From the NCBI GenBank assembly GCA_029213195.1, contig JARGNI010000001.1, positions 124,001-188,000 on the forward strand: a stretch of 64,000 nt of DNA. The letters are read 5' to 3'. The notes beneath the pieces are model-generated. The model was not told the DNA's origin, made no database searches, and was given only the letters and a program-made list of their open reading frames with translations. Positions within the stretch are counted from its first letter, which is position 1, and the number at the start of each line of letters is the position of its first letter. The stretch is from Verrucomicrobiales bacterium. Lineage in GTDB: Bacteria > Verrucomicrobiota > Verrucomicrobiia > Verrucomicrobiales > DEV007. Both the position numbers and the translations under genes were made by a program. Of the stretch, positions 2 through 64,000 are shown piece after piece.

Positions 2-3000
2 AACGTGGCGACTTCAACCGTGGCCGCTCCGAGCGGCACGGAAGAGGGGCCCCAGGCTCAGCAGGAAGCGACGATCACCTTTACGATCGTTGGCGCCGAT
101 GATCCGGCGGTGGCCGTCGACGACGGAACCGCCTTCTCACGCGTCTGGCGCGTGGGGGTCGACAACAATTCAAACTCCGACTTCACCCAGGAGGGGCCGA
201 ATACCGACGAGCACTACTATTTCGCGGGAACCTACACGACGAGACAGGATGGGATCGCGGATCTCAATCCGACGATCGACGAGGCCTTCGATACCTTCGA
301 TCGAGCCCTCACGGTCGGCGATCCTTCGAACTTCATCCACTTCAATCTCGACGCCGGAGAACTCGACAATGATTTTCGCCTTGTTGTCGACAATATCCAG
401 AACAACGGGAGCGTTGCGACTGATCCAGTCGACTTCGAGGTCTTCTTCAACGGGAATCTCGTCTACACTGATACGGTCGACGTAGTTGCGGGAGAAATCT
501 TCGTTTCCCCTCTGTTCAACGGGGCAGACGTAGGGGCCACGACGGGTGACAACACGATCGAGATCCGTCGCTCCGCGACCGGTGCCGGATGGATTCAGTT
601 CGATCACATCACGCTCGAGAGCCGTCCCGTCTACACCACCGACGAAGACGCCGCGCTCAACGTTTCCGCGGCCGATGGCGTTCTTGCGAACGACCAGGGA
701 GATGCTCCTCTCGCCGTAACCGGGCTCCAGGGAACTGCTTCCCTGACTGGATTTTCGGAACATGGCGCTGCCGTTACGATCTCGGCCGATGGTAGCTACA
801 ACTACAATCCAACTTCCGCCGCTCGACTTCAGATGCTGGCCGAGGGTGAATCTCTTGTCGATACCTTCACCTACGAGATCACCGACGGAGGAGGCGGCAC
901 CTCCACTGCTATCGTCTCTCTGACCGTCAGCGGGAAGGGCGCCATCGAGATCCGGGACACTGACGTCCTTCCCGATGGGACCACTCTCGACGGACGGGAT
1001 GTCGAACTCGCCATGTTTGGCGACAGCCTCGAGATTTCGATTTCGGGTGAGCCGGATCCCTTCCACACGACGACAACTGCGGTCGCGAACAATGCAAACG
1101 GTCCCCACGATATCCTAGTCGACATGCCCGGGGACAGTGTCTCGATTCTCGATATCGGATCGGCCAACAGTCCGTTCGGAAATCTCACGGTGACCGGGGG
1201 AACCATCAATCTGAATGGCACCATCACGACCAACGGAGACCAGGGCTACACTGGGCCGGTTGTTCTCGGGGGAGCGACCACTTTCGACACCAGTGCGACC
1301 GATGGAGCGGTGACTGTGACGGGAACCGTCGTAGGTGGCGGCAACGATCTCAGTTTCCTGACCGGCGTCGGCGCTGGTCAGATCACCGATTCCGCGACCG
1401 GAATCGGTCAGCTCAGCGCGACTCAGACCGGCAACATCGCCTTTGAGAACGGTCTCGAAGTCGACGAGCTTTTCGTAGGGATCTCGGTCAATACCGGGGT
1501 GGCCGCCGACAATGTCTTCGCAACGGGAATCGTCTCCGTGACAGGAGGAGCGGTGACCATCGGTGACGGAGACGGCAACGTGGAGATTGGGATGCGCAAA
1601 GGCGCATTCGCTGTTTCCCAGTCCCCCACCACAGGCACGCTCGATCTTTCCGGAGCGAGTTCCGTGACCATCGATGTCGAGAATTTCCTCATGGGAATCA
1701 TTCCGAACGTTGGCGGAGAAGGGCTAGCTCAGGGAACCCTGTTACTTTCCGATGCCGGAAGCAACACCATCAATGCCACCACGATGACGGTGGGAGATTC
1801 TCCTGGTCTCGGAAATGGCACGAGCAATGTCGAACTCGGTGGAGGGATCAACAATCTCAACGTCGACACCTTCACGCTCGGCGGACAGAAGAGTGTGGGC
1901 AACATGACCATCGATGCCGGGGGAACCCTCAATCTCTCGGGCGACGCCAATGCTGCCGCCGACGTGATTCTTGGCTTCAATGTGACGGGGAACACGGGCA
2001 CTGCTTCCCGCGGTAATCTCGATCTCAGTGGCGGAACTTTCAATGCCACGATCAACGACCTCCGTATGGGGCGCCATCTCGTGGGAGGAGGAAACGGTGT
2101 CGGGATTCTCACTTTCGATGCGGGAACCGTGACTGCGAACACCGTTGAACTTGGCGTCGGCAACGTGAATGCCGATGGCACGATCACTCAGCGTGGCGGA
2201 ACCTTTACGGTTGCCAATGGAGTGACTGAAGATAGTGATGGAGGGAGCGCGATCAACGTGATCGACGGTACTTTCACGATTCTCGCGGGCGGACTCGAGG
2301 TCGATGATCTTCTCGTCGGCCAGAATAGCACTACCGCAGTTCTTACGGTGGGCGGCGGAGATGTCGTGATCGGTGATGGAACCGGCAATCTCGATATCGG
2401 GCGTCGCACATCCGCAACCACGCTGGGAACCGTCGATCTCTCCGCTGCCGATTCGGTCACGATCGACGTGGACAACGTCAGGCTCGGAACAGAGACGGCT
2501 CAAGGGCAGACCCAGGGGATCCTGACTCTGTCGGCTGCTGGTGCCAACACGGTCACTGCTGCCGAGGTTACCCTCGGAAGATCTAACTCAGGCGACAATG
2601 TTAGCCTGAGCGATGCGAGTGAACTCCATCTCGGCGGAGCAGCGAACAATTTTAATGTGGATACAGTCATCGTTGGAGACCTCAAGAGCGTCGGTCTAGT
2701 CGACATTGTCGCCGGAGGAACTCTCACTTTGAACGGTCGTGGAGGAGTCGGTAACGAGACCGATCTGAGTGTTGGATTCAATAACGCGGCGGGAACGGGA
2801 ACCAATCCCGTGGAGAGCCATCTCGATCTCACGGGAGGGATATTCAATGCCACTCTCGATGAGGTTATTGTCGGACGACACCCTAGCGGTTCTGGAAGTG
2901 GCACCGGAAAGATTACGATTGTTGATGGTGCTGTTTCTGCGAAGTCAGTTCTTCTTGCCGATACGGCAAATGCCACTGGCACACTCAATCTCGGCGGCGG

Positions 3001-6000: not shown

Positions 6001-9000
6001 AGAACTCACCTTCGACGTCAGTGGTGATGGAGTGGAATGGGCGCAGGGCGTGATCGATGTCCAGGCCAACGATCTCATCAACGTAGGACAGTTCAACATC
6101 ATCCCGAGTGCGGCCAAGACCCTTGAGGGCACCGGAGCATTCATCACCGGAAACGGCGGAACGACCACGGTCGCGACCAGTGCTGTGGTGACGACTCCGG
6201 ATGGAGCGACCAACGAGATCGAGAGTGGAGGCACTCTCACGGGGGGCGGCACGTTCACTGCCGTGACCAGCGGGGCTGCGGGGTCTCTTATCACGACGGA
6301 TGGAAATCTGACACTCGGCGATCCGGCAGCAAATGCCTTCTCTACAGGAGGTGATATCATCGTCAACACGGGCGACACCCTGACCCTGGCCGATTCCGGG
6401 CTGGCCCTGATCGGGGAAAGCACCCTGGTCAATGGAACCCTGACTGCCGCCAACGGTCTCTCGATGAGCGGTGGCGATGAGCTCTCCGGTGGAGGAACGG
6501 TCGATGCCGATATCAGTGTCAATTCGGCGAAAGTGACTCCGGGAGAAGCCGCAGGAGACATCACCAATACGCTCACGATCACGGGCGATATCGATTTTGG
6601 AACGGGTGACTTTACCGTCGATCTCGATGGTGCCGCCAATGGCGACTCGCTCACGGTATCGGGAGCTGTCGACCTCGATGGCTCTACGCTCGATATCCAG
6701 TCGATTGCCAACGTAACCGATGGCGATGTCATCACCCTGATCAACAATACGGGTGCTGGTGGCGTGGTCTCGACATTCTCGGGGCTACCCGAGGGAACGG
6801 TCTTCGATTCCCTGGGAGGCCAGGTCTTCCAGATCAGCTACACGGGTGGTGATGGGAATGATGTGACTTTGACAGCGTCCGGACCCGCAGAGACGGGCCT
6901 CACGCTGGTCGGTGCTCCTGGTGCTGAAGATCTCGTCATCACGGATGTCAACGGGGGAAGCAGCAATGATACTCTGAAGATCACTGTCGGGACTCATCCA
7001 ACGCTCGGACAAAACGGATATACCATTACTGATCCAGGTCGTGCTCTTACCGTCTCGATTCCCGGGGCGGTGCGGGTCAGCGGAAACGAAATCTTCGTTC
7101 CGTTTACCGCGATCTCCGGAGATGAGATCATCTTCGATGCCGATGATGGAGTCGATACTTTGACCCTCGACCTCGGGAATACCGGGGGCGCAGTCCTCCA
7201 GCAGAGCATCGTCTTCAATGGTGGCGGCGGAGCCGGTGATGTTCTTGAGATCATCAATGGTGATCTCACCCGGGTTGTTCACACCATGATCAATGGGACC
7301 GACGGAACGATCGATCTGGATAACGACGTAAACACTGACCTCGAGATCACGTATACCGGTCTCGAGCCGGTCGACATGACGGGATCGACGGCGACCGAGT
7401 TTGTCTTCAATTTGCCCGCGGGAACGGACAACGCCCAGCTTTCGGATATCGGGGGAGGATTTCTCCGACTGGAAAGCACCGATGGACCTGCGACTTTCGA
7501 GTCGACTGATTTTGCTCCCCCGAGCGGATCGATCACGATCAATGGGGCTGCTGATGACACGCTGACGATCAGCAATGATATCACCCTCAGCGGTGACCTC
7601 ATCGTCAACGGAGCTGAGACCGTTCTCGAAGCGAATGTCACAACCACTGGAGCCGACCAGACCTACAACGGGGTCGTCACGCTCGGTGCCGATGTCATCC
7701 TGGCCGGAAATGATGTGACTTTCGAAGAGACGGTCGATTCCGACGGAACGGCGCGTGCACTCACCGTCAATGCGGACGGGGTGACCCGATTCGCCAAGGA
7801 TGTCGGTGAGACCAGCCCGCTTTCGGCGCTGACGACCGATGCTGCCGGATCGACGGAGTTCGGGACCGGTGGAGCGCAGGTCCTTCAAAGCAACCTCGTT
7901 GTCAACTACGATGCTGCTTTTGAGACGACCGGTGACAATACCTGGACCGAGGCAGGAACATCCGCAGGAAGACCTTGGGATCTTCCGGGCAGTGGAGCCT
8001 TCCTACCTGTTCCGGTCAATGAGCCTGGCCTTCCGGGGCTGACAGCTGCCTACCAGTTCCCCGCAGCTGCGGCGACTGCGACCACCTTTGGCACAGCCCT
8101 CGGTGCGGGATCCAACGCCAGCTTCGAGATCTGGTTCAAGCCCACCGGGGCAACCGGTAGCGGCAATCTCGAAGTGCTTTGGGAATCTGGTGGCGATGTC
8201 AATGGCAGTGCAATCTTCTTTGATCGAGCCAGCAACTCCGTCGTGGTTCAGGCCCAGACTGGAGACAACAATGAGTTTTCTGCTTCCGCATCGCTCGCGG
8301 CAGCGGGAACAGGATTCCAGCAGGTCGTGGGGATCTACGATGTGGCAGGCGACAAGATCGATGTCTACCTGAATGGTGCGTTTGTCGCTTCGACCCCTCA
8401 GGCTGGTTTTAACAACTGGGCAGGAACTGATGGGGCGGGCCTTGGCCGAGTCCAGGGAACCGTGACCCAGGACAACGATGGGGTCGCTCCGGCGGACCAG
8501 GTGGTCAGCAGTTTCACCGGCGAGATCGCAATCCTTCGCGGATATAATCGAGCGTTGACCGCCGGGGAGATCGCTTCGAATTACGATGCGATTACCGAAG
8601 CAGTTTCGGTCACTACGACGGGAGCCCAAACCTTCAACGATGGTGTCGAGGTCGGCAGTCCCACAACCTTCGAGGGGGATCAGGTCACTTTCGCCGATAC
8701 ACTCGACAGTGACGCTACACTGGCAGGGTCGGTCAGTATCGATTCTCCAGTGATCGAAATCGAGGGAGCCGTGGGGAGCACCAATCGTCTCCTCAGTCTC
8801 TCGACCGATGGAGGCACCACTACGATTTCGGGAGCCTCGGTGACTACGACTCGCCAGCAGGACTACCTCACGGATGTCGTCCTCGCGGCCGACACGGTCC
8901 TCACGGGACAAGAAGTTACTTTCGACTCCACCGTTGCCACCGATGGCACGGATCGCAATCTCACCATCAACGGTATCGCCAATCTCGACGGTGCTTCGAT

Positions 9001-43183: not shown

Positions 43184-43705
43184 TCCCATTCTCTGACTCG
43201 GGCAGGGAACTCGCGGAGGAGGATTTTTTCCTCCGCGCTTCCCTCCGGTCAGGGGACAGGGGAAAACTGCTCCCTCTCTATTACTCCTTGTTCGAGTTGA
43301 TTGAAATTGCCGAAACCTTTTTCGGATGAGAACGCCAATAACCACAGTCGACGGTGAGATCGGAAATCGGGCCATCTTGAACCCACCGTGAATCTTCTGG
43401 CGAGTCCTCCGGAAAGCGACCCCTGCTCGAAAAAGGCCTCCGCCGACCCGATTTCATGGGGTGATTTCAACTACCGTGCCGTCCGCCCTGATTTTGAGAG
43501 AAATATGCCAGGAAAGTCACGATCGACGGACTGGGGGCAAAGATAGGAAACTCCATGATCTTCTTATCTTTAAGAATCATTTCGCAGATTCGATCTTTTT
43601 GATTGTGAATGATCTCATTTCTGGTAAAAACCTTTTCCTGTGAGTTTTTTGTTGCGTTATTTCAACGTTTTCAAGAATTTTCATAATAAACTCCCGTCCT
43701 AGTTT
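43184..43705 (+). other. Intergenic region between the two giant genes
   Basis: This 522-nt gap has no convincing gene; the longest in-phase pieces are short and lack family features. It starts with a strong hairpin (43205-43243). The last 150 nt are much more AT-rich than the coding sequence, as expected of a promoter region. A possible -10 (CATAAT, 43682-43687) with a weak -35 (TTCAAC, 43661-43666, 15-nt spacer) is present, and small inverted repeats AAAGATA/TATCTTT lie at 43539-43571. None of these is strong. No purine-rich Shine-Dalgarno stretch precedes ATG 43706. Confidence 0.6.
43205..43243 (+). terminator. Hairpin after gene A, probable terminator
   Basis: Starting 22 nt after the stop codon, GGGAA (43205-43209) pairs with TTCCC (43239-43243). 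CGCGGAGG (43212-43219) pairs with CCTCCGCG (43230-43237), with a small internal loop between the two helices. The terminal loop AGGATTTTTT holds the T-run, which is unusual: a canonical intrinsic terminator has it after the stem. It may therefore act as a 3'-end stabiliser, or terminate in either direction. Confidence 0.5.
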
Positions 43706-55700: not shown

Positions 55701-58700
55701 CCTACACCATCGCGGATGATGAGGGGCTGACTGATACAGCTACCCTGAGCGTCACTGTCACCAGTCTTACGGACACGACGACCGTGATCTATGTCAACGA
55801 TGACTGGGCAGGAACCACTCTCGGAGCTTCTATCGTAGATGGGGATCTCGAGACGGGGGCGGCCGATCCAGCGATCTTTGGAGCCAATGCGTTTGCGACA
55901 CTGGCCGACGCGGTGGCTGCAGCCAAAGCGGAATCGCAGCCGGTCACCCTGGTCATCAATGGTGGGACCTACTCCGAGGCGCTCGATCTCAGTGGGGCTT
56001 CAAACGGGCTGACCGTCCGCTTTGCCGAAGGTGGGGCAACCGTTGCTTCCCTGACTGCGGATGCCAACGTGACCTTGGAGTTCGATATCGATGGCAACGG
56101 AGGAGTTGCAGGTTTCGATTTCGATCAACTCGTCGTGACCGGCGATGTGAACCTGGGAGGAGCCAGCCTGGATGTGAGCAACTCAGCGTTGTCTGCTGCA
56201 GTAACTCCTTCGAGTGAGCTGGCCTTGATTTCGAACGGAGGAGCGACTTCCGGGGAGTTTGCTGCTTTGGGCGAAGGCGCTGCCTTGACCATCAATGGCG
56301 AGGTATTTGCAGTTTCTTACACTGCAGGCGACTCGAATGATGTTGCCCTTGTTGCCGCTGGACCAGTGGAAACCCAGGTCGAAGTGGTTGGAGGTAACCT
56401 CGTGATTACGGATGCGCCTTCAGACGCAACGACGGACTCCCTCTCCATTCGGATTGGGGATCCCGATCCCACGAATGGGTTCTACGTGATTTCCGGCGAC
56501 ACGGTGATTTCAAGCAACAGCTCGGGGGTGACCCGGAGCAGTGTGAATGAGATTGTCGTGCCGTTCAGCTCGCTTACGGCAGGAGGGACGATCACCTTCG
56601 ACGGAGGAGATGGTACCGATGTGCTCACCATCGATTTGAGTTCGAATGCAGGGGCGCCGCTTCAGCAGAAAATTGTGTTCAACGGCGGTTCCGGAGGTCT
56701 GGGAGAGAATGATACGCTTGTCATCACCAACGGAGTCTTCACTCGAGTCGTGCATAGCATGACCAATGGCACCGACGGGGAGATCGATCTGGATGACGAT
56801 TCGAATGTCGACATCGAGTATACCGGCCTGGAGCCTGTCGATATGTCAGGCAGCACGGCGACAGATTTTATCTTTAATCTTCCTGCCGGAAACGATAACG
56901 CGAAGCTGTCGGACATCGGAAGTGGGATTCTTCGTCTCGAGAGCACGGATGGTCCTGCGACCTTTGAATCTACCGATTTTCTCGCACCGACTGGCTCGAT
57001 CACGATCAATGGGGCAGCAGGGGATGTTGTTACGATAGGAAGCGACCTCGACTTCGGGGGTGCCACCTTTACAGTCAACGGTGCCCTGGTTGACGTGGAC
57101 GGAAGTTCGAACGACTTCAGCATCACCGCTTCCCAGGTCGATCTGGAAGATGTTACGCTGGATAGTTTCAATACCCTGGGTCTGAACGTGTCCGGAAGCA
57201 GCGTGATCTCGGGGACGGTGACCGCGAATGTCGGCGGGCTGTCGAAATCTGGCCTGGGTATCCTGACGATCTCCGGTCAGATGACAGGTTCCGACTTCAC
57301 AGGGACCGTGGAGTCCAATGGTGGTGAGGTCAAAGTGGAGGACGCCACGAATTCCTTGAATAGTGCGTCCACCTGGACAGTGGAAAGTGGCAGTGTGCTC
57401 GAGATTGCCGGTGACGCCGCTGCAAGCGCGCTCGGTGATGCCGATGTGACCTTGAATTCAGGGGAGATCGAGTTTGTTCTGCCTCCAGGAAGTGTCACCG
57501 ATACGCCGAATGCCCTTGAGGCAAGGTATTGGGACTTCAACATCCAGGATTTGGCGTATCGGAATACGGGTGGATTGTTTGGGCAGGGGGTCGCTGCCTT
57601 TGAAACGTTTGCGAATCTCAATCAGTTCATTGCAAACGATCTTGGAGCTGCCACGGCGAATCCGGATTTGATCGGAGCGATCGATTTTCCTGCGGGTGGG
57701 GGGAACAACTCCACGGGTGGAAACCCCTTTGACAGTATAGGGGTCAACGTCGGCACCGACAACATGGTGAGCGTCTGGAGCGGTTACGTCCATGTTGATT
57801 CCGAAGACTACGACGGAAACCCCACGACCTTCTACACCGCAAGCGACGATGGCTCGATGCTCTTCGTGGACGGGGAGATGGTGGTCAATAACAACCGCTT
57901 CCAGGGAGTGGTAGAGAGAAGTGGCACCTACGACTTGAAGCCGGGAGACCATCACATCGTCATCGCCTTCTTTGGCGGTGGTGGCGGAGAAGGGATGACC
58001 GCCAGCTGGCAGGGAGCCATTACGGGCGGAGCCAAGGAGCTCATCGATGCCTCCGACACAGGAGCGAGTGGAAACAGTTTCTTCTTTAAGCGGGAAGCCA
58101 CTGCGGTAGCCGACCCGAACTTTGACCTGAACAACAACATCACTGCAAATGGCACATCCACGATCGAGATGGCTGCCGAGCTCACCGGCGTTAAGCTCGA
58201 TGGCCTGACCACGGGTCAAGGGGCGGCGCTGGATGTAGTTTCACTCGGAGTGAATCAGCCTCTCGAGTTTGAAAACAGCGTCACCCTGAATGGTGCTGCA
58301 GCAACGACCACGACGATCGACACCCTGGGGAGTCCTGAGGTGATCTTGAACAATGTGAGTGGTGATGTTGATCTCGACATCACGGGGGACGGAACCGTGA
58401 TCCTGCCGACCGATAACTCCGCAGGCTTCACGGGTGAGATCCTTGCCGGAGATGGAGCAACGATTGAAGTCCAGGCCGACGGAGCGCTTGGCTCCGCCGC
58501 GAAAGGAACGGTTATTGAATCGGGAGCTTCGCTCCGCATCACGGGTGGTATCAACTACGCCACTCCCGAGGCTTTGACGATCAGTGGTCCAGGAAACTCG
58601 AACTCGGACGGGGCCCTCCACAGTGAAAGTGGAGACAACGATTTCGGTGGTCCGATCACCTTGGGCGCCGATGCCACGATTCGTACTTCAGCGAACTCCC

Positions 58701-61700
58701 TGGATCTCATTGGGGGAATCGATACGGCCGGCAACCAGGTTGTCTTTGAGAGTGTATCGACGACTCGAATCCAGACGGTGGGAATCACCGGGTCCGGCTC
58801 TCTGCGTAAGGAGGACAACGGAACACTCGAGCTTTGGGTCGATAACGGATACACCGGCATTACCGACATCAACAATGGTGTCGTCGATATTCGAACCGAT
58901 GGCGCCCTGGGAGCTGGTTCCACTACCGATGTTGCCGGAGGTGCGACACTCCGTCTCCGCGGAGACATCACCGTAGGCGAAGACATCACGCTCCAGAACG
59001 GAAATGGAGAAGGGAACCAGGGGGTTCTCCGGAATGATGATGGAAGCAATGAAATTTCCGGCACCATCACGCTCGCGAGCGGAACCCCACGGATTGACGT
59101 GGATGGCGGTACGACCCTGAGCCTTTCGGGACAGGTTACCGGTGCAGGAGGCTTCGATAAGACCGACTCCGGAACCTTGGTGCTTGAGAATGTGGCGGCA
59201 AACAACGACTACGCCGGCACGACCACGTTCGAGTCGGGAACCCTGATTGTCAGTGCCGACAACTCGCTTGGAGCTGCCGGCAACGACACCGTCATGTGGC
59301 ATGGTACGACCCTTGAGCTGGATCTTGCCGGGGACTACACCGCGGCAGAGTCTCTTGTTCTTTACTCCGGCGTGACTCTGCGAAACCTCAATTCGGACAC
59401 TACTTTCGGGGATGCGACATCGAGCATCACCCTGAATGGGGATGCCACGATCGACTCGGCTACGGGTGGTGCGACTTTCAGCACCGATGCTTCCATTTCC
59501 CTCGGGATCTCCAATCTCGTTGTGACCGGAGACGGAGACACGGACCTCGGAGGAGACGTGACCAGTGTCGACTTTGTCGATGACGGTTCGGGGAACTTCT
59601 GGGCTGCCGGTCTCGCAGAAACTGTTTACAACGGAAACAATATCGCGAATCCGACTGCGGGAACGATCATTGGAGGGAGCGGTCTCGTGACCAGTATCCG
59701 GGCCGGAGAGGCGAACTTCAATCAGAATACCGTGAATGAAGGTGCGAGCGGTCCCTGGACCTTCCAGGCCAACAATGAAACGGTTGTCTACACCGGCCAG
59801 TTTTTTGACGCCGACGGAGTTTTCGAGTTTGCCGAGAATATTGATGACGGCGTTCTGATCAAGGTCGATGGTGTGGAAGTTCTCGTCAATACCCAGTGGA
59901 ATGTTCCAACTACCACGGCCAGTGTAACTGGAAATAGTGCGGCTGGCGCCGCTACTCTTGACTTTGGTATGGGGCCCGACCTCGACGGCTGGCACGATAT
60001 TGAAATTCGTTTTGGAAATGGTAGCGGCGGCGCTGGTGCCGTGGGTCAGAATGGCTGGGCCTCGAACTTCGGATTTGGCCTCGCCAACCCTGTCTCCGGT
60101 AACACGGTAGATCTTCCTGCTTCGGCGAACGGCGGCGATTATGCTCCGGTCAGCGATCCGGGAGATGGATCGGTATTCCGGACCAATCTGGAAGGTCGGG
60201 CAGGCATTATCAAGCAGGGCGCGGGCGAACTTCGCCTCGAAGGAAACAATACCTTCGACGGCCTTACTGACGTTCAGGAGGGAACTCTCGTTGTGGGAGC
60301 GGCTGACGCGTTGGGATCCGACGATCTCGGAACGACTGTCGCAGATGATGCCACCTTGGCTCTTGAGGGAACCTTTACCCTCGCCAACGAAGAAATTTCG
60401 GTTGGAAACAGCACGATTCATCACCTCGGGGGCGATACGACGATCTCAGGTCCGATCACGGTGGAAGACCGAACCGATGGAACCGTTACGATTTCTTCCG
60501 ATGCGGATCTCCTCACTATTTCTTCGGATCTGAACCTGAACCTCTCCGACCTTGCGGTGCAGGGTGATGGTGACATCGCGATTACAGGGCAGTTGAGCGA
60601 TATCAGCTCTCCTTCAAGCCATGTAGAGTTGCTTTCTGGTGATGCCAATCTGAACGCCTACTATCGATTCGAGGAGCTCGCTGGCAGTGCGACGGCGTTG
60701 GATTCGAGCGGGAACGGCAATGACGGGACCTACGCGAATGGAGCGGAGAACGGATTGGAGCAGGACAGTGCGAAGGGCTCGTTGGATTCGGCGGTCAGCC
60801 TGGCGGAGGCCAACAGTCAATATATTTCGTTGGGTAAGACTCCGGCCGAGTTGGGATTGAATGGAAGCTTTACCGTTTCCGCCTGGGTGAATCTCGATAC
60901 CTTGACAGGTGACAACACGATTCTTGGAAATGCCGGATCTTCTACCAATCAGGGACTTCATCTCGTGGTTCGAGGAAACAAGGCGCATTTCGGTTTCTAT
61001 TCGACGGACACCGCTGGAGTTCAGACTCTATCCGCTAATACATGGTATAACATTGTTTGGCGTTACGATGCTGCCGGTAACGGAGGAAATGGTGAGCAAG
61101 CCCTTTTCGTAAATGGCTCTCTCGACGTTGCCAATACGGCCGCTCGAGCACCATTCGCTGGCACTGCTCCCGTTGACATCGGCAGATGGCGTGGAGGCAA
61201 CTACTTCGACGGAACTTTGGACGAGGTTGCGATCGTAGGAAGAGCGATGAGTGACGCAGAAATCGCGTCTCTTTATTCTGCCTCGTTTGATGCGGATCTC
61301 ACGAAGTCTGGTTCTGGAACGCTGACTCTCTCCGGGGACAACTCCTATGGAGGCGATACTTCGGTCCAAGGCGGGGATCTTGTGGCTACGAACACTACTG
61401 GATCAGCGACTGGTTCCGGTGATGTCACCGTAGCTTCTGGCGCAACGCTCCGGGGAACCGGTGCAGTCAGCGGATCGGTCACTTCGACGGGCGGAACGAT
61501 TGACTCCGGTCTTTCCGCTCCTGCCGATGTCACCGACGATCTCGGCACGGGCGGAGTCAGCTTTGACAATACGTCTACTTTTTCCGTCGAACTGGCAGGA
61601 ACCGATGCCAGTGCCGGAGAATACGATCAGATCGACGTCGCCCAAGGTGGCACCGTTGCCGTCGATGGAGCCGTCCTCGATCTGAGTATCGTGGGAACCC

Positions 61701-64000
61701 CAGGATTCACCAATACGGACAAGTTCGTTATCGTGAACAGTGATGACACGGATCCGAATGCAGCCGTCACGGTGACCAATGCTTTTGTCGATGACGCGTC
61801 AGGAACACTCACGGGAACCGCAGGAACCGAGCTTTCGGACGGAACTGCTTTTGAAGTTTCCGACGGAGCCAACACCTATGTCTTCACGATCCACTACAAC
61901 GTGGACGGAGCGACGGTGACCCAGGCCAATGTAGGATCCAGTTCTGGTAACGATATTGTCCTTCTTTCGCAGGGAATTGCCGAGACCAGTGTTGAAGTAG
62001 ACGGAGGTGGAAACCTGATCATCACCGATATCAACGGGGGAACATCCGATGACGAACTTTTCATCGAGGAGGTCGATGTCGCGGGAGTTGCCTACTACCA
62101 GGTTCGCGATCTTGGCGGATTGCCGCTGACAACGAGTGAGAACGCTGCCGACTTCATTCGGGTCGACGCGAATACGATTCAGATTCGGAAAAGCATCGTG
62201 ACTGGCGGGTTGACCGTGAATACCCTCGGGGAGACCACCAGCGATGCGGTGACCCTTGGGGGAACTGTGCCCTTTTCGTTTGCAGGACCTGTGGTGGTCA
62301 ATGGAGAGTCGATTACCCTGTTCCAGGATGTGACCGCCGACGCTGCGGGAACTCCGCAGGACGTTACTTTGAATGGTGCGGTGACTCTCAGCACTGCTGT
62401 TGCGGTTACGGGAGCGGATGTCGTCTTTGAATCCACGGTCGACTTCTCTACCTTCGACCTCACTGTAGACACGACGGGTGCCAACAGTGAGATCAAGGGA
62501 GCGATCGCCGGATCCGGTGTTCTCATCAAGCAAGGCCTCGGAACGCTCCGCATGAGTGGAGGTTCCGCGAACAGCACAGGGGCAACCACGGTCGAGGCCG
62601 GTGTTCTGGAATGGGGTGCCAATGATGCGCTTGGCAGTGGCACGGTCACGGTCGAGGCCGGTGCCACCGTGGATGTCTCGTCTCTTAGCGGAAGTAACAA
62701 TGGCGCTACCGGCACCAATGGCAGCCAGCGAGACTACGTCCTCGCCGGAACCGGATCAGCTGGGCAAGGTGCTCTCATCAACTCGACGGGATCCCTCGGC
62801 GGGAACTCCGCAGTGCGCAGTCTCACTCTTACCGACAACACCACGATCACGACAGGTGCTCGTCTCGATGTAGGCTCCGGAGGAACGATTGACTTGGCTG
62901 GTTTCACCCTGACGAAAGAGGGAGCCAATGTCCTGCCGTTCCGTGCCGCAGTGAACGATGCATCGGCCAGCCTGGTCATCAACGCGGGTGGAGTCTACAC
63001 CGAGAATTTCGATCTCACTCTCGACACAGTGGCCCTGAAAGACGGGACTAGCTTCGGAATCTACTCCTACAACGGAACTCCAGGTCAGACCGTGACAGCC
63101 GATATCACGATCGATGGAAACGCCAGACTTCGACATGGTTCCAATAATGGAGCTGGAGGCGCTGGGACGGGTGTTCCGTCTTCCGCGAACAAGTGGGAAG
63201 GAACTCTCACGATCAATGGGGGAACGGCGACTCTTCAGAATGCAGGGTTCAACGCCAACACTTCGAATGTCGAGTTTAACAGTGTCATCTCCGGAACGGG
63301 AACGATTGTGCTTGATGGGAACCGGGCAGATCGCTCGATCACCTTCGGCAGCGCGAATGATTTCTCCGGAACCGTCCAGCAGATCGATCAAGGCACCTTC
63401 ACTCTTGCCAACGGTCTTGCGCTTCAAGATGCGACCCTGGATACTCGGACCACGGCAGTGGGAGACTTGGATTTCGGATCGCTGACTGCGGCTACCTTTG
63501 GAGCGTTGACAGGATCAAATGATCTTGTCCTCGAGAATGGAACCTCTTCTGCGGTGGCTCTCTCGGTGGGGAACAATGATGCCAACTCCACCTATTCCGG
63601 AGAGCTCTCCGGAACTGGTTCCCTTGAGAAGATTGGCACAGGCACTCTTACTTTCGAGAATGATCAGACCTTTACCGGTACGACTACCATCACCGACGGA
63701 ACACTTGCGCTCAGCAAGGGGGCGGGAACGAGTGAAAACGTGCTCGCTGGTTCTTCCGCGATCACCGTGACTACCGGTGCGACGCTGGATGTAACTGCGC
63801 AGGAAAATGGCGTGATCTCCCTGGCCAACGGTCAGATTCTTCGAGGCGAAGGAACTGTAGTTGGAACGATTGATGGGGAGAATGGATCTGTTCTCTCACC
63901 AGGTGAAGGAGGGGTCGGCGATCCAGGGATTCTTTCTACGGGCAATCTCGATTTCATCTCCGGGGCTTCGGTCATTATCGACCTCGGAGGAACGACGGCA
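43706..64000 (+). CDS. Giant LEPR-XLL multidomain protein (gene B), 3' end outside the window
   Basis: ATG 43706 starts a frame with no stop to base 64000, giving 6,765 residues so far. The start is chosen because the basic N-terminus (MNRTTSSRRKRWFFARAMAR) and LEPRVLFSG at residues 49-57 match the expected head of LEPR-XLL proteins. Domain order: LEPR segment; metzincin-like motif at 205-226; beta-helix 1; Ig-like linker; beta-helix 2; two cadherin-like units with nested CBM6-like and F-type-lectin-like sandwiches; a short helix; solenoid with two PA14-like domains, one LamG and seven PATR repeats. No hydrophobic signal peptide is evident, which is common for LEPR proteins. A role as secreted or surface adhesin/scaffold is inferred. 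Any protease activity is unproven. The distal solenoid uses the same header modules as gene A, so the genes are probably related by module exchange. Confidence 0.95.
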   Translation, partial: MNRTTSSRRKRWFFARAMARAYREMLEKRRKKRPGAKTAKQRPLFAEALEPRVLFSGTPVPADPEAGGGEQNEEAAQTAEMLENVSTTDSTIDGIPQAGLEDELTEEDVERLAQEAVARWEASGLTDEQIEALERINYVVDDLGGLTLGKVEGDTIYLDDDAAGLEWFIDETASLDEEFSGYDGYLEALSDEAMEGIDLLTVIMHEQGHILGLADLGGDVDGLNLMHDDLSEGERILPAAGQAVGAVPGSLTGSHELTVGPVADGAALRTAIQNIESVDGINGDPLYEIELIAGTNYDVSGGQLEIRNRTVNVVIEGNGATIDAKDLNRVFYISEGSNVTFRNLTITGGSISNDSGAGLWIDNANVTFEDVTIEGNATGHQDRHGAGFFARGLETTITVLGDFVVQDNNAGGHGGGFYLEQHVVLDASAANSVLIDNNKSGDNGAGFTRTDRDGGGFALNEHATVTLNNAVISNNGSASSGRDGGGFWAIGNSEVHLTGTNDLSGNTAREDGGGFYLADRAVVTMSDTKVENNTATVGHGGGFRTVSALNEVTLSETAAGLSSLRNNMAVNNNGHGGGFWNQGALNITDVDITGNKAGNQGGGFYNYGEGAVVNFTDVNVTDNTSGDGGGGFYNNRAVVNFELSSNAQTNITGNETGVEVDGTTRRDDRHGGGFRTEGTGSITINGANVSNNISTGYGGGFYAGGEHAVTLNDGVMNANVMNTTRGDRDGGAILITEAASVTLNNVDLTNHTTTRRYGGAVAMHTASSTFTMNDGEISGNISNNALNNDSGYGGGIWSIGTVNLTNVDISGNEAKGEGNENVYGGGLAIQGRSGTGNFTNVNVTGNTSWHNGGGVFTGDGQVNWDGGTLSGNLIGGNSGNDSVGAGAFISGETDVTFTNVTVSDHEAESHGGGLYINGRSVVTFDGGEISNNRAGIESDGTVIQNGADGGGIYATDDARLVLKGGVLVTNNTAEEHGGGFAAVADRNIVSIEGAQITNNTASSGEGGGFFNQGTVLFSGSTIITGNRTTVGDESAGTDNVGGGFRSAGTLSRVLTGSMGDIYSRGVPDIVMGTATITLDNNVAHGRGGGFYVTDGIVDLRGSVAGDISISNNGIDSGATSNERRGGGFWASGGSRNTLVRLDNAVIDGNASPRDGGGFYIREGAKVELNEVSITNNTAVLDGGGFRGDGSDTEITMTGGTIQNNTATFENSGGDGSRGGGFRTSGHVSLTNVQVTGNKTDWVAGGNQDRRGGGAAVDGSGKLTANNVTFDGNQSYGVGAGIYLEGLLEATELNVSNHSFLVTDQRREGAGVHATGASKIDWTGGELSGNVSTYHAGGMRMDGSAEVTLTDVDILNNRAQHHATDGDTNAVGGAIYAEGTTSLRLIDSTVDGNIAEGRGGALYFDDTEVTIVNTNITNNRAGVTWDSATGTLSFIANANGNNIQREGGGLWASGEAQIHMSGGQVSGNAAWNGGGFEIRNNTELTLDNVVVEGNVANTGGAARSYEDAEWNVINNTQFLGNVAYNGDGGALYLSSQVEADISDSIFRNNVALHNGEFAGDADRDGAGIYLNSSADVSIHRSTFDENFAHGRGAAVFANHNDAGGLEILDSSFVDNRTTHEATGSIWRGRGGAVSIETATNTAETKIAGSLFSGNVAAYHGGAINVNRGVLDMENTTIDGNISGLDLDTGAGVTFGTDAATTIAAVKAAATRSTNATGGAMMIEAGTDGITASLKYLTVTENQSYAGNAGGIFRNNDSNTNITVNLEDSIVFNNFRDADVNDPVTNPSIRDTQNGINLIGNNIIGVHAGTALSGNTAGLGNTDPGLLALADNGGATLTRAFNAGSSAEDAAASAGEAFDQRGGIRPAGASDLGAFELGATLPTVTITDVEEVSHGPVTEPAQFGATLSGAGTLSWTFTAPSSAQTVLVGDSVAFTPTESGDYTVALSVDGGPVAREFTFNSGTAVSVNDEASLRAAIAAFNSGSADMTVTLDSTGDYTFSSADDLDITNRDNTIVLVGDGASAADTVIDGDDRDRVFDVGSFSHLILRNLTVTGGQVADHGAGIRVSNGFVTLDNVIVEDNEGAGTGGANRVGGAMYITGHSEVEANDVTIRNNTSYGRGAGIYIDHHSALSFSGNTVIDNNDSSRIWNNGHGGGLWASGRATITAEGDLSITNNDAGAGGGGMFLGDEASLDASQATSVTISNNNQNPLQDGNSHGAGFWASNRSSVILNNATIDGNGNPAKGQEGGGFRANTHSSVTITGGAITNNHARTSAGGFRLVDSAIVSLTDVDISNNTANNGGSGGGFFSEAKTSVTISGGSLENNSAQGGGDGGAFFARGRVTIDGVEIQNNTTGANNDAFGGGFYATGQDAVISLTDVDILNNTSADHGGGFHATGGAQVTFDLDTKSQIRITGNSVTGNNGGGGGFFLGQGASVDLNAGAAGQTVVLNGNTTHQHGGAFRTDGGAVTILSGDQSEISGYDLTTVGGANGSGAGFFVSTYGSVDLTNVDILNNTAADEGGGFFTQYFGSVTVTNGVISGNRSNGENNQDGNDNWRNRGGGFFNRGSLVTLNNTDVINNLTLPSTGRTNSQHLGGGFYQEARWSLTEINDGNITGNKSQGDGAGFFVVDGAVSISSSDGSHTISNNETTSVNRGGGGFFALGMADVTIDNVDITSNIATNNGGGFYVTNDATVTVKNAKIDQHTLTGTNRDGAGFYIRERGHVILENVNLENNTATRAGGGFRAESVDARVEITDSTITGNKATDSDGGGFYNQGTVVIRGTEISGNIADDPTPGNDDRDGGGFYSTGWGSSVTLENVTIDNNDAYGRGAGFVLNNGWGDFDNVTVTNNEILSTNRQGGGGWVAGGARLDWDGGAISNNIATNDGGGLALGSLWSDGEAAGLVDLNGVDITDNTAGEQGGGFISYRSNTTLNITNSSISGNQSLRGRGSNYDEAGGGGTIWGGNVTIADTTISNNESAANATGNEAKRGGGLYIRSSYADVTLNDVDITANTGAEGAGLYNWGAVLTMNGGSITNHVAPADTERVGGGMALLGNSENEINNVTISGNIASSEGGGIWAADRAITTLNNSSVVNNRTSDPVGGNNNRVGGGIRIGSDAIFTANRSQIDNNESFGRGGGIYNDGKLTLVESSISENVSQGRDENESRGGGLWSSGGDSQLTVESSTIANNTAYGNYGGGIAFWSGEGSITNSTISGNKAGYDVDGNVVNGGYSSGGGIRMQDGGQNGGFLTIDHSTITENVVKGGDGGGIRRNNGELTISNSILYGNIAEADSTSPRAQDLYGASTIEGNNIIGVLRDETLAPGATVSSDNPGLGALQDNGGPTLTHLPGASAIDAAISSTAAEDQTGQTRNLGVANDIGAVEYEAPTTTDDVVGNTTDEDNAAGGIDLISNDTANSASTLTIQSVSKPSAGGVVTIDGSGTSVTFDPNGEFEHLGTGQQETVTFYYGMESADGYGSGHPVTFIEENGVVAGLAIHHGLSSLAAGGATWVERDQAADNPDGIGNQGGAKAPDEGGAISGKFLQVPNDKGINTGGVDTPPESDPYVDYTIVIETAGTYELFLRGSNMLADSGGSDSVFASIVELQDGTGGANADWYGIGMNTGGNFQWKGGGASENTGSNNSGNATFDLAAGTYTLRLMPRENGVALDAWALVETSAIPNSVVTVNSRVAGPAESQFVTGVLGKAEVVVTGVNDAPIAVDDTASATEAGGADNTIPASGSTGNVFDSTTAEVITLTATLIEGAQRGDSSEVATTNDPFAYDPADPTAVMPDQAYSTSAPADGFHGSGSGDHVISYELAAPVVVVDSSTELIVDLYGRNCCRDRDNNIDIQYLNAAGELIGEIKGLTIPDIAPEHLRVSSLGAVREGETIACFRVVGHDSDSNPTSGNNFSLMELRAAKLVGDNDVDANDTVSLGLATDLVVTDIAFAGAPFPTSTNTGGPVSGQTLIDGAFGTLTIQPDGSYSYEVNEAVLAGIDAGVDPVDTFTYTIADDEGLTDTATLSVTVTSLTDTTTVIYVNDDWAGTTLGASIVDGDLETGAADPAIFGANAFATLADAVAAAKAESQPVTLVINGGTYSEALDLSGASNGLTVRFAEGGATVASLTADANVTLEFDIDGNGGVAGFDFDQLVVTGDVNLGGASLDVSNSALSAAVTPSSELALISNGGATSGEFAALGEGAALTINGEVFAVSYTAGDSNDVALVAAGPVETQVEVVGGNLVITDAPSDATTDSLSIRIGDPDPTNGFYVISGDTVISSNSSGVTRSSVNEIVVPFSSLTAGGTITFDGGDGTDVLTIDLSSNAGAPLQQKIVFNGGSGGLGENDTLVITNGVFTRVVHSMTNGTDGEIDLDDDSNVDIEYTGLEPVDMSGSTATDFIFNLPAGNDNAKLSDIGSGILRLESTDGPATFESTDFLAPTGSITINGAAGDVVTIGSDLDFGGATFTVNGALVDVDGSSNDFSITASQVDLEDVTLDSFNTLGLNVSGSSVISGTVTANVGGLSKSGLGILTISGQMTGSDFTGTVESNGGEVKVEDATNSLNSASTWTVESGSVLEIAGDAAASALGDADVTLNSGEIEFVLPPGSVTDTPNALEARYWDFNIQDLAYRNTGGLFGQGVAAFETFANLNQFIANDLGAATANPDLIGAIDFPAGGGNNSTGGNPFDSIGVNVGTDNMVSVWSGYVHVDSEDYDGNPTTFYTASDDGSMLFVDGEMVVNNNRFQGVVERSGTYDLKPGDHHIVIAFFGGGGGEGMTASWQGAITGGAKELIDASDTGASGNSFFFKREATAVADPNFDLNNNITANGTSTIEMAAELTGVKLDGLTTGQGAALDVVSLGVNQPLEFENSVTLNGAAATTTTIDTLGSPEVILNNVSGDVDLDITGDGTVILPTDNSAGFTGEILAGDGATIEVQADGALGSAAKGTVIESGASLRITGGINYATPEALTISGPGNSNSDGALHSESGDNDFGGPITLGADATIRTSANSLDLIGGIDTAGNQVVFESVSTTRIQTVGITGSGSLRKEDNGTLELWVDNGYTGITDINNGVVDIRTDGALGAGSTTDVAGGATLRLRGDITVGEDITLQNGNGEGNQGVLRNDDGSNEISGTITLASGTPRIDVDGGTTLSLSGQVTGAGGFDKTDSGTLVLENVAANNDYAGTTTFESGTLIVSADNSLGAAGNDTVMWHGTTLELDLAGDYTAAESLVLYSGVTLRNLNSDTTFGDATSSITLNGDATIDSATGGATFSTDASISLGISNLVVTGDGDTDLGGDVTSVDFVDDGSGNFWAAGLAETVYNGNNIANPTAGTIIGGSGLVTSIRAGEANFNQNTVNEGASGPWTFQANNETVVYTGQFFDADGVFEFAENIDDGVLIKVDGVEVLVNTQWNVPTTTASVTGNSAAGAATLDFGMGPDLDGWHDIEIRFGNGSGGAGAVGQNGWASNFGFGLANPVSGNTVDLPASANGGDYAPVSDPGDGSVFRTNLEGRAGIIKQGAGELRLEGNNTFDGLTDVQEGTLVVGAADALGSDDLGTTVADDATLALEGTFTLANEEISVGNSTIHHLGGDTTISGPITVEDRTDGTVTISSDADLLTISSDLNLNLSDLAVQGDGDIAITGQLSDISSPSSHVELLSGDANLNAYYRFEELAGSATALDSSGNGNDGTYANGAENGLEQDSAKGSLDSAVSLAEANSQYISLGKTPAELGLNGSFTVSAWVNLDTLTGDNTILGNAGSSTNQGLHLVVRGNKAHFGFYSTDTAGVQTLSANTWYNIVWRYDAAGNGGNGEQALFVNGSLDVANTAARAPFAGTAPVDIGRWRGGNYFDGTLDEVAIVGRAMSDAEIASLYSASFDADLTKSGSGTLTLSGDNSYGGDTSVQGGDLVATNTTGSATGSGDVTVASGATLRGTGAVSGSVTSTGGTIDSGLSAPADVTDDLGTGGVSFDNTSTFSVELAGTDASAGEYDQIDVAQGGTVAVDGAVLDLSIVGTPGFTNTDKFVIVNSDDTDPNAAVTVTNAFVDDASGTLTGTAGTELSDGTAFEVSDGANTYVFTIHYNVDGATVTQANVGSSSGNDIVLLSQGIAETSVEVDGGGNLIITDINGGTSDDELFIEEVDVAGVAYYQVRDLGGLPLTTSENAADFIRVDANTIQIRKSIVTGGLTVNTLGETTSDAVTLGGTVPFSFAGPVVVNGESITLFQDVTADAAGTPQDVTLNGAVTLSTAVAVTGADVVFESTVDFSTFDLTVDTTGANSEIKGAIAGSGVLIKQGLGTLRMSGGSANSTGATTVEAGVLEWGANDALGSGTVTVEAGATVDVSSLSGSNNGATGTNGSQRDYVLAGTGSAGQGALINSTGSLGGNSAVRSLTLTDNTTITTGARLDVGSGGTIDLAGFTLTKEGANVLPFRAAVNDASASLVINAGGVYTENFDLTLDTVALKDGTSFGIYSYNGTPGQTVTADITIDGNARLRHGSNNGAGGAGTGVPSSANKWEGTLTINGGTATLQNAGFNANTSNVEFNSVISGTGTIVLDGNRADRSITFGSANDFSGTVQQIDQGTFTLANGLALQDATLDTRTTAVGDLDFGSLTAATFGALTGSNDLVLENGTSSAVALSVGNNDANSTYSGELSGTGSLEKIGTGTLTFENDQTFTGTTTITDGTLALSKGAGTSENVLAGSSAITVTTGATLDVTAQENGVISLANGQILRGEGTVVGTIDGENGSVLSPGEGGVGDPGILSTGNLDFISGASVIIDLGGTTA
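43850..43876 (+). other. LEPR-XLL motif of gene B
   Basis: LEPRVLFSG at residues 49-57 follows a lysine/arginine-rich stretch and an AEA spacer. The LEPR-XLL domain marks the N-terminus of very long proteins in Planctomycetota, Verrucomicrobiota and some other bacteria. It is thought to take part in export or processing, but its mechanism is not known. The form here has F in place of the second L. Confidence 0.85.
44093..44420 (+). other. Metzincin-like N-terminal domain of gene B
   Basis: HEQGHILGLAD (residues 205-215, nt 44318-44350) fits HExxHxxGxxD, the zinc-binding signature of metzincins whose third ligand is Asp. MHDDLSEGERILP, starting at Met226, could be the Met-turn. Upstream, LEWFIDETASLDEEF recalls the segment that precedes this motif in other LEPR or calx-beta type giant proteins. 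The domain is only about 100 residues long, shorter than free matrixins. It may be a reduced or inactive protease, or a self-processing module; this is inference. Confidence 0.6.
44471..49330 (+). repeat. Gene B: parallel beta-helix 1 (Pmp-like GGGF/NN repeats)
   Basis: Opens with ALRTAIQNIES and GNGATIDAKDLNRVF, LRNLTITGG style, the usual start of CSLREA/choice-of-anchor-Q beta-helices. Dozens of repeats of the form V.L..V.I.NN.A...GGGF(Y/W) follow, close to the polymorphic outer-membrane protein repeats of Chlamydia, another PVC phylum. It ends with LTRAFNAGSSAEDAAASAG, then FDQRGGIRPAGASDLGAFE, the DxGAxE closing motif. An extracellular adhesive rod is inferred. Confidence 0.8.
49331..49585 (+). 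other. Gene B: Ig/PKD-like linker between the two beta-helices
   Basis: A single sandwich of about 85 residues: TVTITDVEEVSHGPVTEPAQ, TLSWTFTAPS, ESGDYTVALSVDGGPVAREF. This strand order fits a PKD/Ig-like domain. It separates two beta-helices of the same kind. Confidence 0.5.
49586..53845 (+). repeat. Gene B: parallel beta-helix 2 (Pmp-like repeats)
   Basis: Restarts with the opening type seen in helix 1: SLRAAIAAFNSG, VLVGDGASAADTVIDGDD, LILRNLTVTGGQVADHGAG. The same repeats follow (DVDISNNTANNGGSGGGFF, VDILNNTSADHGGGFHATG). The end is SILYGNIAEAD, NNIIGV, DNPGLGALQDNGGPTLTHLP and NDIGAVEYE, a classic choice-of-anchor-Q ending. Helices 1 and 2 look like an old duplication. Confidence 0.8.
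54146..54733 (+). other. Gene B: nested CBM6-like domain
   Basis: Marks are VDYTIVIETAGTYELFLRGS, SDSVFASIVELQDGTGG, ADWYGIGMNTGGNFQWKGGG, AGTYTLRLMPRENGVALDAW. Direct paralogue of gene A 40557-41130, with the same order of motifs and the same host type. Carbohydrate binding is inferred. Confidence 0.6.
54923..55440 (+). other. Gene B: nested F-type-lectin/discoidin-like sandwich with vicinal cysteines
   Basis: Contains ELIVDLYGRNCCRDRDNN (Cys3833-Cys3834, codons 55202-55207) and TIACFRVVG (Cys3885), ending FSLMELRAAKL. A CC pair after an NR-type turn is typical of F-type lectins and related discoidin-like domains, where the pair can form a vicinal disulfide in the sugar site. The Asp usually found before CC is absent here, so fucose binding is uncertain. 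Confidence 0.5.
55781..56362 (+). repeat. Gene B: short beta-helix segment
   Basis: VIYVNDDWAGTTLGASIVDG and AFATLADAVAAAKAESQPVT are the usual opening of right-handed beta-helices in these proteins. The segment then runs VTLEFDIDGNGGVAGFDFDQ, GEGAALTINGEVFAVSYTAG and DSNDVALVAAG, the closing motif that also ends the solenoid blocks of gene A. It is unusually short. Confidence 0.6.
56363..57511 (+). repeat. Gene B: solenoid block homologous to gene A block 3
   Basis: Header PVETQVEVVGGNLVITDAPS. At about 56600-57030 there is a segment (RVVHSMTNGTDGEIDLDDDS, YTGLEPVDMSGSTAT, LRLESTDGPATFESTDF) that matches gene A 7132-7568 almost motif for motif. A PATR-like repeat near 57235 (LSKSGLGILTISGQMTGSDF) follows. 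Confidence 0.7.
57512..58105 (+). other. Gene B: PA14-like domain 1
   Basis: ALEARYWDFNIQDLAYRNTG opens the domain. SVWSGYVHVDSEDYDG, YTASDDGSMLFVDGEMVVNN and YDLKPGDHHIVIAFFGGGGG are the usual PA14 core. PA14 domains bind glycans in many adhesins and glycosidases. Here it is inserted in the solenoid after DVTLNSGEIEFVLPPGS. Confidence 0.8.
58106..59570 (+). repeat. Gene B: PATR-bearing solenoid
   Basis: PATR repeats near 58796 (LRKEDNGTLELWVDNGYTG) and 59150 (FDKTDSGTLVLENVAANNDY), each followed by G.L.(V/I)......LGA spacing and GG.TL.L strands. PATR units are typical of passenger stalks. No insert is seen within this part. Confidence 0.65.
59571..60090 (+). other. Gene B: PA14-like domain 2 (diverged)
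   Basis: WTFQANNETVVYTGQFFDAD, FEFAENIDDGVLIKVDGVEV and DGWHDIEIRFGNGSGGAG follow PA14 or fibro-slime-like strand order (Y.G.F, DD...(V)DG, G.(H).I...). Similarity to PA14-like domain 1 is weak. A concanavalin-type sandwich is the alternative. Confidence 0.5.
60646..61290 (+). other. Gene B: LamG-like domain
   Basis: AYYRFEELAGSATALDSSGN, GSFTVSAWVNLDTLTGDNTI, WYNIVWRYDAAGNGGNGEQA and GTLDEVAIVGRAMSDAEIAS match the Laminin_G_3 order. It is flanked by solenoid and PATR strands, and is the only LamG of gene B inside the window. Confidence 0.85.
61291..64000 (+). repeat. Gene B: PATR-rich solenoid to the window edge
   Basis: PATR repeats near 61300 (LTKSGSGTLTLSGDNSYGG), 62515 (LIKQGLGTLRMSGGSANSTG) and 63622 (LEKIGTGTLTFENDQTFTG). 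A new block header starts at 61976 (IAETSVEVDGGGNLIITDI). The window ends in the globular segment that follows a PATR (SVIIDLGGTTA), so more of the block must lie downstream. Confidence 0.75.

Follow-up and report, generated by a model that had tools for sequence, protein, structure and literature searches.

We identify two adjacent giant genes, A and B, in a Verrucomicrobiales genome, and we interpret them, with somewhat better than even confidence, as encoding paralogous giant exported fibres built from one template, most likely surface or matrix adhesins. In the proposed template a fixed head, with a LEPR-XLL motif before a matrixin-like zinc protease, would lead into a beta-helix and then into a stalk that is a mosaic of modules of the lectin, propeller and Ig/cadherin types; the domain at the C-terminus would again be fixed. 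The intact frames, the shared head and tail, the predicted modules, the tandem giants of relatives and the conserved neighbours are read directly from sequence.

The window, that is, the whole stretch of DNA analysed (64,000 nt), corresponds to positions 124001-188000 of the 285,259-base contig C57 of genome G000, a 5.91 Mb assembly in 115 contigs that is 95% complete and 1.4% contaminated. Table 1 collects the features; residue n of gene A begins at window position 3n-12442.

Table 1. Features of genes A and B, in window positions unless prefixed with C57.
Feature	Position	Strand	Remarks
Gene A, complete	C57:111561-167183	+	18,540 codons from TTG 111561; 18,539 aa from ATG 111564
Gene A, part inside the window	2..43183	+	codons 4148-18540 and stop; gene start 12.4 kb upstream of the window
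Gene A middle, LamG_3 (aa 6852-7589, 10082-11269) and PATR (aa 7665-11381)	8114..21703	+	Pfam and iterated models
2,438-bp tract	14219..16656	+	direct repeat, in frame; 100% identical to gene B at C57:192585-195022 (beyond the window)
Gene A second FG-GAP (beta-propeller) array, aa 12409-13259	24785..27337	+	Pfam and iterated models
Gene A VCBS/cadherin-like modules alternating with LamG_3, aa 13287-17092	27419..38836	+	Pfam and iterated models
Gene A conserved C-terminal domain (tail), aa 18272-18540	42374..43180	+	75.8% aa identity with that of B
Intergenic region	43184..43705	+	522 nt
Gene B, complete	C57:167706-218108	+	16,800 codons, 16,800 aa
Gene B, part inside the window	43706..64000	+	codons 1-6765
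Gene B LEPR-XLL motif	43844..43891	+	NF012209, above the curated cut-off
Gene B matrixin-like metzincin domain	43997..44491	+	aa 98-262, our borders
Gene B zinc motif HEQGHILGLAD	44318-44350	+	within the matrixin-like domain
Gene B right-handed beta-helix region, aa 339-3239	44720..53422	+	weak match to aa 3415; Pfam and iterated models
Gene B VCBS-type (aa 3379-4014), PA14 (aa 4684-4771, 5354-5451), PATR (aa 5038-6667) and LamG_3	53840..63706	+	Pfam and iterated models
Gene B LamG_3, about aa 5703-5854	60812-61267	+	Pfam only

Two intact giant genes

Inside the window there are two plus-strand frames, of 14,393 aa (14,392 from the first GTG) and 6,765 aa, the first open at the left edge and the second at the right, with a gap of 522 nt between them. 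This confirms the first-pass annotation, which had described two adjacent giant genes running off the window and had called for an extension of the contig both ways. When the contig is extended, both frames close on C57, outside the window and without inner stops. The ATG of gene A at 111564 aligns with the start of gene B. The genes are 55.6 kb (A) and 50.4 kb (B) long and jointly take up about 106 kb, or 1.8% of the genome.

No N falls inside A or B, and the sole N run of C57 (100 N) is at 253287-253386. Codon usage correlates with that of 89 other C57 ORFs of at least 250 aa at r = 0.92 for A and 0.89 for B, with 0.09-0.19 in shifted frames and 0.69 in antisense; the composition of the coding strand most simply accounts for the many long ORFs in antisense. 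Chance is no serious explanation for the frames. An assembly break or frameshift within A or B is ruled out by the frames, the N positions and the codon data, with an exact 2,438-bp repeat (see below) as residual doubt, and the two genes are real and intact as far as the assembly can show.

Both genes are well above the 5 kb used as the mark of a giant gene in Planctomycetes (>5 kb; PMC5177795). The expectation that A would be among the largest bacterial proteins was overstated, as it is far below published PVC giants, such as that of V. archaeovorus (39,678 aa; PMC10066038) and those that PMC12057145 cites from the West-Roberts 2023 preprint, which reach about 85,800 aa. In our sample of 141 genomes A is near the top, the longest LEPR-XLL open frame having 18,596 aa (G056).

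A simple promoter and terminator scan of the intergenic region finds no plus-strand site; on the minus strand it gives one promoter-like and one terminator-like site (0.4 and 1.0 in shuffles). By eye, the last 60-100 nt or so before the start codon are alike in A, B and giants of other species, with TTGC..TTATTT and ATAATAAA-like stretches (window 43600-43705 and C57:111464-111563), hinting at a promoter or leader of its own for each giant.

A conserved head and a conserved tail

A LEPR-XLL head, which the first-pass annotation had suggested looking for upstream in A, is found there and also on B, and the two heads are 78% identical in amino acids. The corresponding family, NF012209 (LEPR-8K), is a 24-position motif with a curated cut-off of 17 bits; A and B both score 24.9 bits and are the only two above the cut-off in their genome. 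In a separate NCBIfam run, limited to the 500-aa heads and the C-terminal pieces, the heads score 20.7 and 22.3 bits. The motif is short, and in a control set of 14 known genomes it has matches at E<=1 in seven, at E<=0.05 in Deinobacterium chartae alone, and above the cut-off in one. It is above the cut-off in 48 of the 141 genomes.

In both genes the motif is followed by a metzincin-like domain with a zinc motif of the HEQGHILGLAD type. Its PF00413 (Matrixin) scores, 23.3 bits in A and 23.2 bits in B, are below the Pfam gathering score of 24, and the match in B does not appear at E<=0.001 in a scan of its first 2,500 aa as a single piece. All 24 heads chosen for alignment A3 match PF00413 at E<=0.01. 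Searched against the PDB, the profile of this alignment finds karilysin (E 1.3e-4) and, more weakly, matrix metalloproteinases, over the active-site stretch only. NCBIfam adds weak M6 and snapalysin matches, in the head of A only, and the AlphaFold model of the head is poor (pLDDT 42), without a Foldseek match at E<=0.001. On these profiles we call the domain matrixin-like only.

We followed the conservation of the head in 47 distinct homologous rows, leaving out gaps per column; the rows were gathered by a search with this head and so favour similar heads. The first His of the zinc motif is found in 40 of 41 rows, the Glu in 39 of 41 and the second His in 39 of 40. The position of the third zinc ligand (n=39) is Asp in 35 rows, Glu in two and His in two; the Met of the Met-turn is present in 36 of 38 rows and is followed by Arg in 38 of 38. 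The metzincin signature, HExxHxxGxx(H/D) and a Met-turn, is found across these rows, all gathered by the head query, and the head is probably an active matrixin-like zinc protease. Karilysin and other matrixins (PF00413) and snapalysin are alike in the HExxHxxGxx(D/H) motif, in the Met-turn and in the weak profile matches. Here, unlike in karilysin and the matrixins, the third ligand is mostly Asp, the domain is fused near the N-terminus of a giant, and gene A has no cysteine for a cysteine switch. In snapalysin the third zinc ligand is also Asp. The only two rows without the zinc motif are the first copies of tandem head-type domains in two loci, L099 (the giant at G025:C3:29653-60555) and L037 (G056:C8), where the second copies keep HExxH; this suggests duplication with loss of the catalytic residues in one copy.

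The tail comprises the last 269 aa of A and B. It starts with GGSxI...EGF and includes an LSVDSIxGRRL motif. Relatives of the tail occur in 19 of the 141 genomes searched (our own included), and in 33 of 33 distinct rows the tail ends 9-79 aa before the stop; by a hand count, head and tail occur together in 19 open frames. The tail of B has no Pfam match at E<=0.01. The AlphaFold model of the tail is weak and mostly beta (pLDDT 56), and Foldseek gives no match at E<=0.001; the best Foldseek match, thrombocorticin (E 5e-3, TM 0.36), is not taken as evidence, and a PDB sequence search with the tail returns one match, at E 0.83. We take the fixed tail as a putative export or anchoring part.

Mosaic middle regions

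We scanned A and B with Pfam in pieces that include all but two codons of A; modules that cross a border between pieces may be missed. Counts combine Pfam with our own iterated models and are lower bounds where they come from the latter, which missed the LamG_3 of B. For A they give 27 FG-GAP repeats in two arrays (the first at aa 2991-3790, upstream of the window), 12 LamG, 17 VCBS/cadherin-like and five PATR modules, together with a beta-helix region within aa 342-2698. For B they give 10 VCBS-like, 19 PATR and seven PA14 modules and one LamG_3 (Pfam). Neither method finds FG-GAP in B or PA14 in A. As predicted from these models, many repeat kinds are common to A and B, and the domain order differs. 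The VCBS repeats near the C-terminus of both are above the TIGR01965 cut-off.

Gene A encodes no cysteine (about 175 are expected at the contig rate) and has a net charge of -1851 and no TM-like window, all of which would fit an extracellular acidic fibre. B has five cysteines and also lacks a TM-like window. PATR repeats occur in autotransporters. We rejected the idea that the beta-helix and PATR regions mark a chlamydial Pmp or an autotransporter, as Pfam gives at E<=0.001 no such family across A and B and no match to an autotransporter C-terminal beta-barrel translocator.

An exact tract and the evolution of the pair

The 2,438-bp tract of Table 1 has two copies in the genome, only those in A and B, and is read in frame 0 in both (from aa 8887 in A and from aa 8294 in B). 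It sits in a 3.26-kb stretch at 90% identity, with abrupt edges and aligned flanks at 64%. The heads of A and B have a dS of 1.65, near synonymous saturation. An exact in-frame tract despite such near-saturated heads makes module exchange between the neighbours seem likely, and the tract fits a recent gene conversion or duplication. Computed recombination across it removes 54 kb and yields a single giant of 17,393 aa that stays in frame. In G006, a genome of the same genus, exact tracts shared by the giants that we read reach 41, 32, 269 and 247 bp at most, and for the giants of G025 we find none of at least 30 bp, so that the long tract is peculiar to the A/B pair.

Most comparisons have a dS that is saturated or exceeds 1, which makes the dN/dS values rough: 0.05-0.11 in the head, beta-helix, propeller and A/B tail comparisons, 0.39 in the module shared by A and B (dS 0.18), 0.09 and 0.16 in two modules compared between B and G024, and 0.30 in the A/G024 tail; three A/G024 segments are saturated and give no ratio. 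G024, a third species of the genus, has one giant of 18,928 aa, provided that two contigs sharing a unique 55-bp overlap are joined. Over roughly its first 5,000 aa this giant is collinear with aa 1-4620 of A (58-78% identity per segment), and the rest is made of reshuffled A-like, B-like and unassigned stretches. In the head tree, A and B pair (93/92) and G024 comes next (91/96); five of the seven G006 heads group (92/97) and two fall outside. Support is modest, and no branch is at the strong-support mark.

The likely path is that a whole giant was duplicated in tandem, after which the head and tail would have stayed constrained and the middles would have been re-assorted by in-frame recombination or gene conversion between neighbours. 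As a guess only, the protease could serve to trim its own fibre or neighbouring ones, or could cleave a substrate at the surface.

Tandem giants and conserved neighbours in relatives

The head occurs in 29 of the 141 genomes searched and in 13 of the 33 of the genus, our own included in both; several of the 20 genomes of the genus with no head are incomplete. In an even sample of the phylum (n=288) there are six head matches at E<=1e-6: those of our own genome, G121 and G139, all in the order, a fourth from the class (E 6.7e-15), and a further two, both weak, from elsewhere in the phylum. Against named genomes, the head of B finds seven loci, all in verrucomicrobial MAGs, six of them labelled Verrucomicrobiales. 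Within the phylum searched, we read A and B as a tandem pair from a family of giants with LEPR-XLL/metzincin heads that appears lineage-specific.

Head matches, which are not always separate genes, number 16 in G029, 11 in G023, 10 in G043 and seven in G006. The first-pass annotation had described the exact pairing and domain order as unfamiliar, and side-by-side giants turn out not to be unique. Contig C52 of G006 carries the end of one giant and, behind it, two complete ones (9,780 and 8,736 aa). C80 of the same genome has four heads, and a 10-N gap apparently interrupts one of its genes. On G029:C144, three frames with head and tail (5,148, 4,176 and 2,179 aa) come one after another. We did not join C80 and C52 of G006 into a single array, as the contig ends have no overlap.

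Upstream of A are genes for an AAA ATPase, a glycerate kinase, a DNA methylase, an ORF without match, a PLP enzyme and a TPR protein. These divergent neighbours match those beside a giant in G006 and beside the giant on C44 of G025, both of the same genus. The DNA methylase is 75% identical in G025 and 74% in G006; in G006 the PLP enzyme is at 90%, the TPR protein at 55% and the glycerate kinase at 53%, and the AAA ATPase identities are 31% and 25%. On the other side, genes for dCTP deaminase and cytidylate kinase come after the giant in G024 and G025, and in G006 they are found some 7 kb past the last giant of C52; downstream of B there are guaB and guaA instead.

A sulfatase gene and a tryptophan-halogenase-like gene stand just upstream of a giant in G006 (C80:67734-71181), G024 (C174:1-3420) and G025 (C44:15632-19936). 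The halogenase-like relative of our own genome is at C57:246277-247812, away from A and B.

The idea of a dedicated giant-surface-protein locus thus holds in part. Tandem giants with shared modules, neighbours conserved in two other species and tandem arrangements in relatives speak for it; against it, there are no dedicated secretion genes among the neighbours tested, and a surface location is read from the modules.

Export route and alternative explanations

We infer that A and B are exported and adhesive, and the modules point to the cell surface. The first-pass annotation had proposed to look for secretion genes downstream of B, and the genes tested there, guaB, part of guaA and secDF, include no dedicated ones; secDF, about 4.3 kb after B, encodes a general translocase. 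Neither these three nor the six upstream neighbours include an exporter gene of the kind that adjoins type I secreted adhesins. No Sec-like hydrophobic stretch, hydrophobic signal or anchor is found in A or B. An extension compatible with our preferred reading, and adding a route to it, is that the two are adhesins of the LapA/BapA kind, with a type I secretion system encoded elsewhere in the genome as their exporter; we regard this as possible, at rather less than even odds. The missing Sec-like stretch would agree with it, as would an LssB-type ABC transporter gene at the end of contig C5, which scores 573 bits over positions 1-506 of 696 and is below the cut-off because the contig end cuts it short; 0 of 14 control genomes pass the cut-off of the LssB model. 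In the genus, LssB (at least 490 bits) or HlyD above cut-off is found in 9 of 13 head-bearing genomes and in 5 of 20 others (Fisher p 0.029). With HlyD taken by itself the counts are 8 of 13 and 4 of 20 (p 0.027), and type I genes are found in 6 of 7 genomes with tails at E<1e-30 and 8 of 26 others (p 0.026), or 7 of 10 and 7 of 23 with tails of any strength (p 0.057). All these tables are hand-counted, and the tests are post hoc and uncorrected, with completeness and relatedness uncontrolled. On the other hand, four of the 13 head-bearing genomes (G001, G011, G014, G026) are without such a system, G001 having a weaker LssB relative (364 bits), and RTX-like nonapeptides are few (four in A, two in B). 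Three of the four type I operons that we read adjoin, by eye, a VCBS-like ORF of their own, with no tail found on those contigs, so that the operons of relatives need not export giants like A and B. The HlyD search of our own genome gives seven matches, all below the cut-off (best E 1.2e-8), possibly because the LssB frame is cut at the end of C5 and the next gene would fall past the contig. The type I link to A and B is a lead only.

Two observations concern the type I loci themselves. The region G000:C5:10001-28010 (L114) looks like a type I operon, in which the LssB-type transporter cut by the contig end is preceded, by eye, by outer-membrane factor-like, VCBS-like and TPR-like ORFs. On G029:C40 and G023:C151, a head-bearing frame and HlyD and LssB are on one contig, about 10-40 kb apart.

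The giants could instead be weapons, secreted or at the surface, for degrading or preying on other cells, a role put forward for the giants of Omnitrophota; the metzincin would then be the active part. The protease-like head with its conserved catalytic residues, the carbohydrate-binding-like LamG and PA14 modules and the predation proposed for other PVC giants (PMC10066038, PMC12057145) lean that way, but Pfam at E<=0.001 matches neither a glycoside hydrolase nor a lyase in A or B, there is no TM-like window, and a single small protease domain in some 17,000-18,500 aa argues for processing or adhesion over degradation; we consider a weapon unlikely. We hold an assembly artefact to be quite improbable. 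In that case there would be only one giant, or fewer giants, parts of which were joined or duplicated at the 2,438-bp tract, either by strain chimerism or by the way in which the repeat was resolved. The tract is an exact direct repeat with abrupt edges, it links A and B and is longer than short reads, and C57 is probably a scaffold, given the 100-N gap elsewhere on it. Yet, by reasoning, the four junctions of two direct copies can be connected only as a single linear path, or as such a path together with a circle; A and B differ far past strain level in their heads, tails (76% aa identity) and beta-helices; and other assemblies of the genus contain closed giants and tandem pairs. The interpretation as exported fibres built from one template is the one that we retain.

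Relation to known giants

PVC giants and tandem giant loci are already known. In a literature search with most subscription papers and bioRxiv outside its scope, and in the accessible parts of the articles, we found no description of the A/B locus or of a LEPR-XLL/matrixin fusion in Verrucomicrobiota, and the LEPR-XLL/metzincin-headed variant and its anatomy look new. LEPR-XLL proteins (NF012209) share with A and B an N-terminal motif above the cut-off and often very long ORFs; the family entry consists of 24 positions only, and in A and B a matrixin-like domain comes after the motif, together with the shared tail at the other end. A LEPR-XLL protein of about 8,000 aa from Vibrio has C-terminal RTX and serralysin domains instead (PMC10868602). 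The Giant1-5 proteins of Apilactobacillus kunkeei (PMC12863079) are alike in being consecutive extracellular giants with an N-terminal beta-solenoid (Giant1-4), a conserved C-terminal segment and recombination. They differ in size (3,000-8,000 aa), in having signal peptides and in belonging to a lactic acid bacterium. In the accessible part of that article a protease head is not mentioned, and no sign of recent within-genome gene conversion is reported, in contrast to the exact tract of A and B. Giant ORFs of Omnitrophota and other PVC bacteria (PMC10066038, PMC12057145, PMC5177795, the last on giant genes of planctomycetes) are similarly very large, and some contain Laminin_G_3; the V. archaeovorus giant has 42 predicted TM helices (PMC10066038), unlike A and B. 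Huge proteins have also been surveyed (PMC11573180). The adhesins BapA, Bap and LapF are alike in their VCBS repeats near the C-terminus (TIGR01965). The C-terminal pieces of A and B score 47.4 and 52 bits with the BapA/Bap/LapF model (NF045619), far below its cut-off of 180; their head and tail differ from those adhesins, and there is no type I gene among the neighbours tested.

A more far-reaching version of our reading, which we find doubtful, is a lineage-specific Verrucomicrobiota giant fibre locus with fixed head and tail cassettes, in which the zinc-protease head would mature or release the fibres and the stalk would be rewritten by in-frame recombination between tandem giants, allowing fast switching or fusing of surface giants.

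Many PVC giant ORFs have few annotated domains and unclear functions (Omnitrophota; PMC10066038). A and B belong to a recognisable family, with a defined head and tail, tandem copies, neighbours conserved in some species and signs of recent module exchange. Such a family makes it possible to test the role of the LEPR-XLL head and of the tail in export or anchoring, and to study how 50-kb genes are maintained and diversified.
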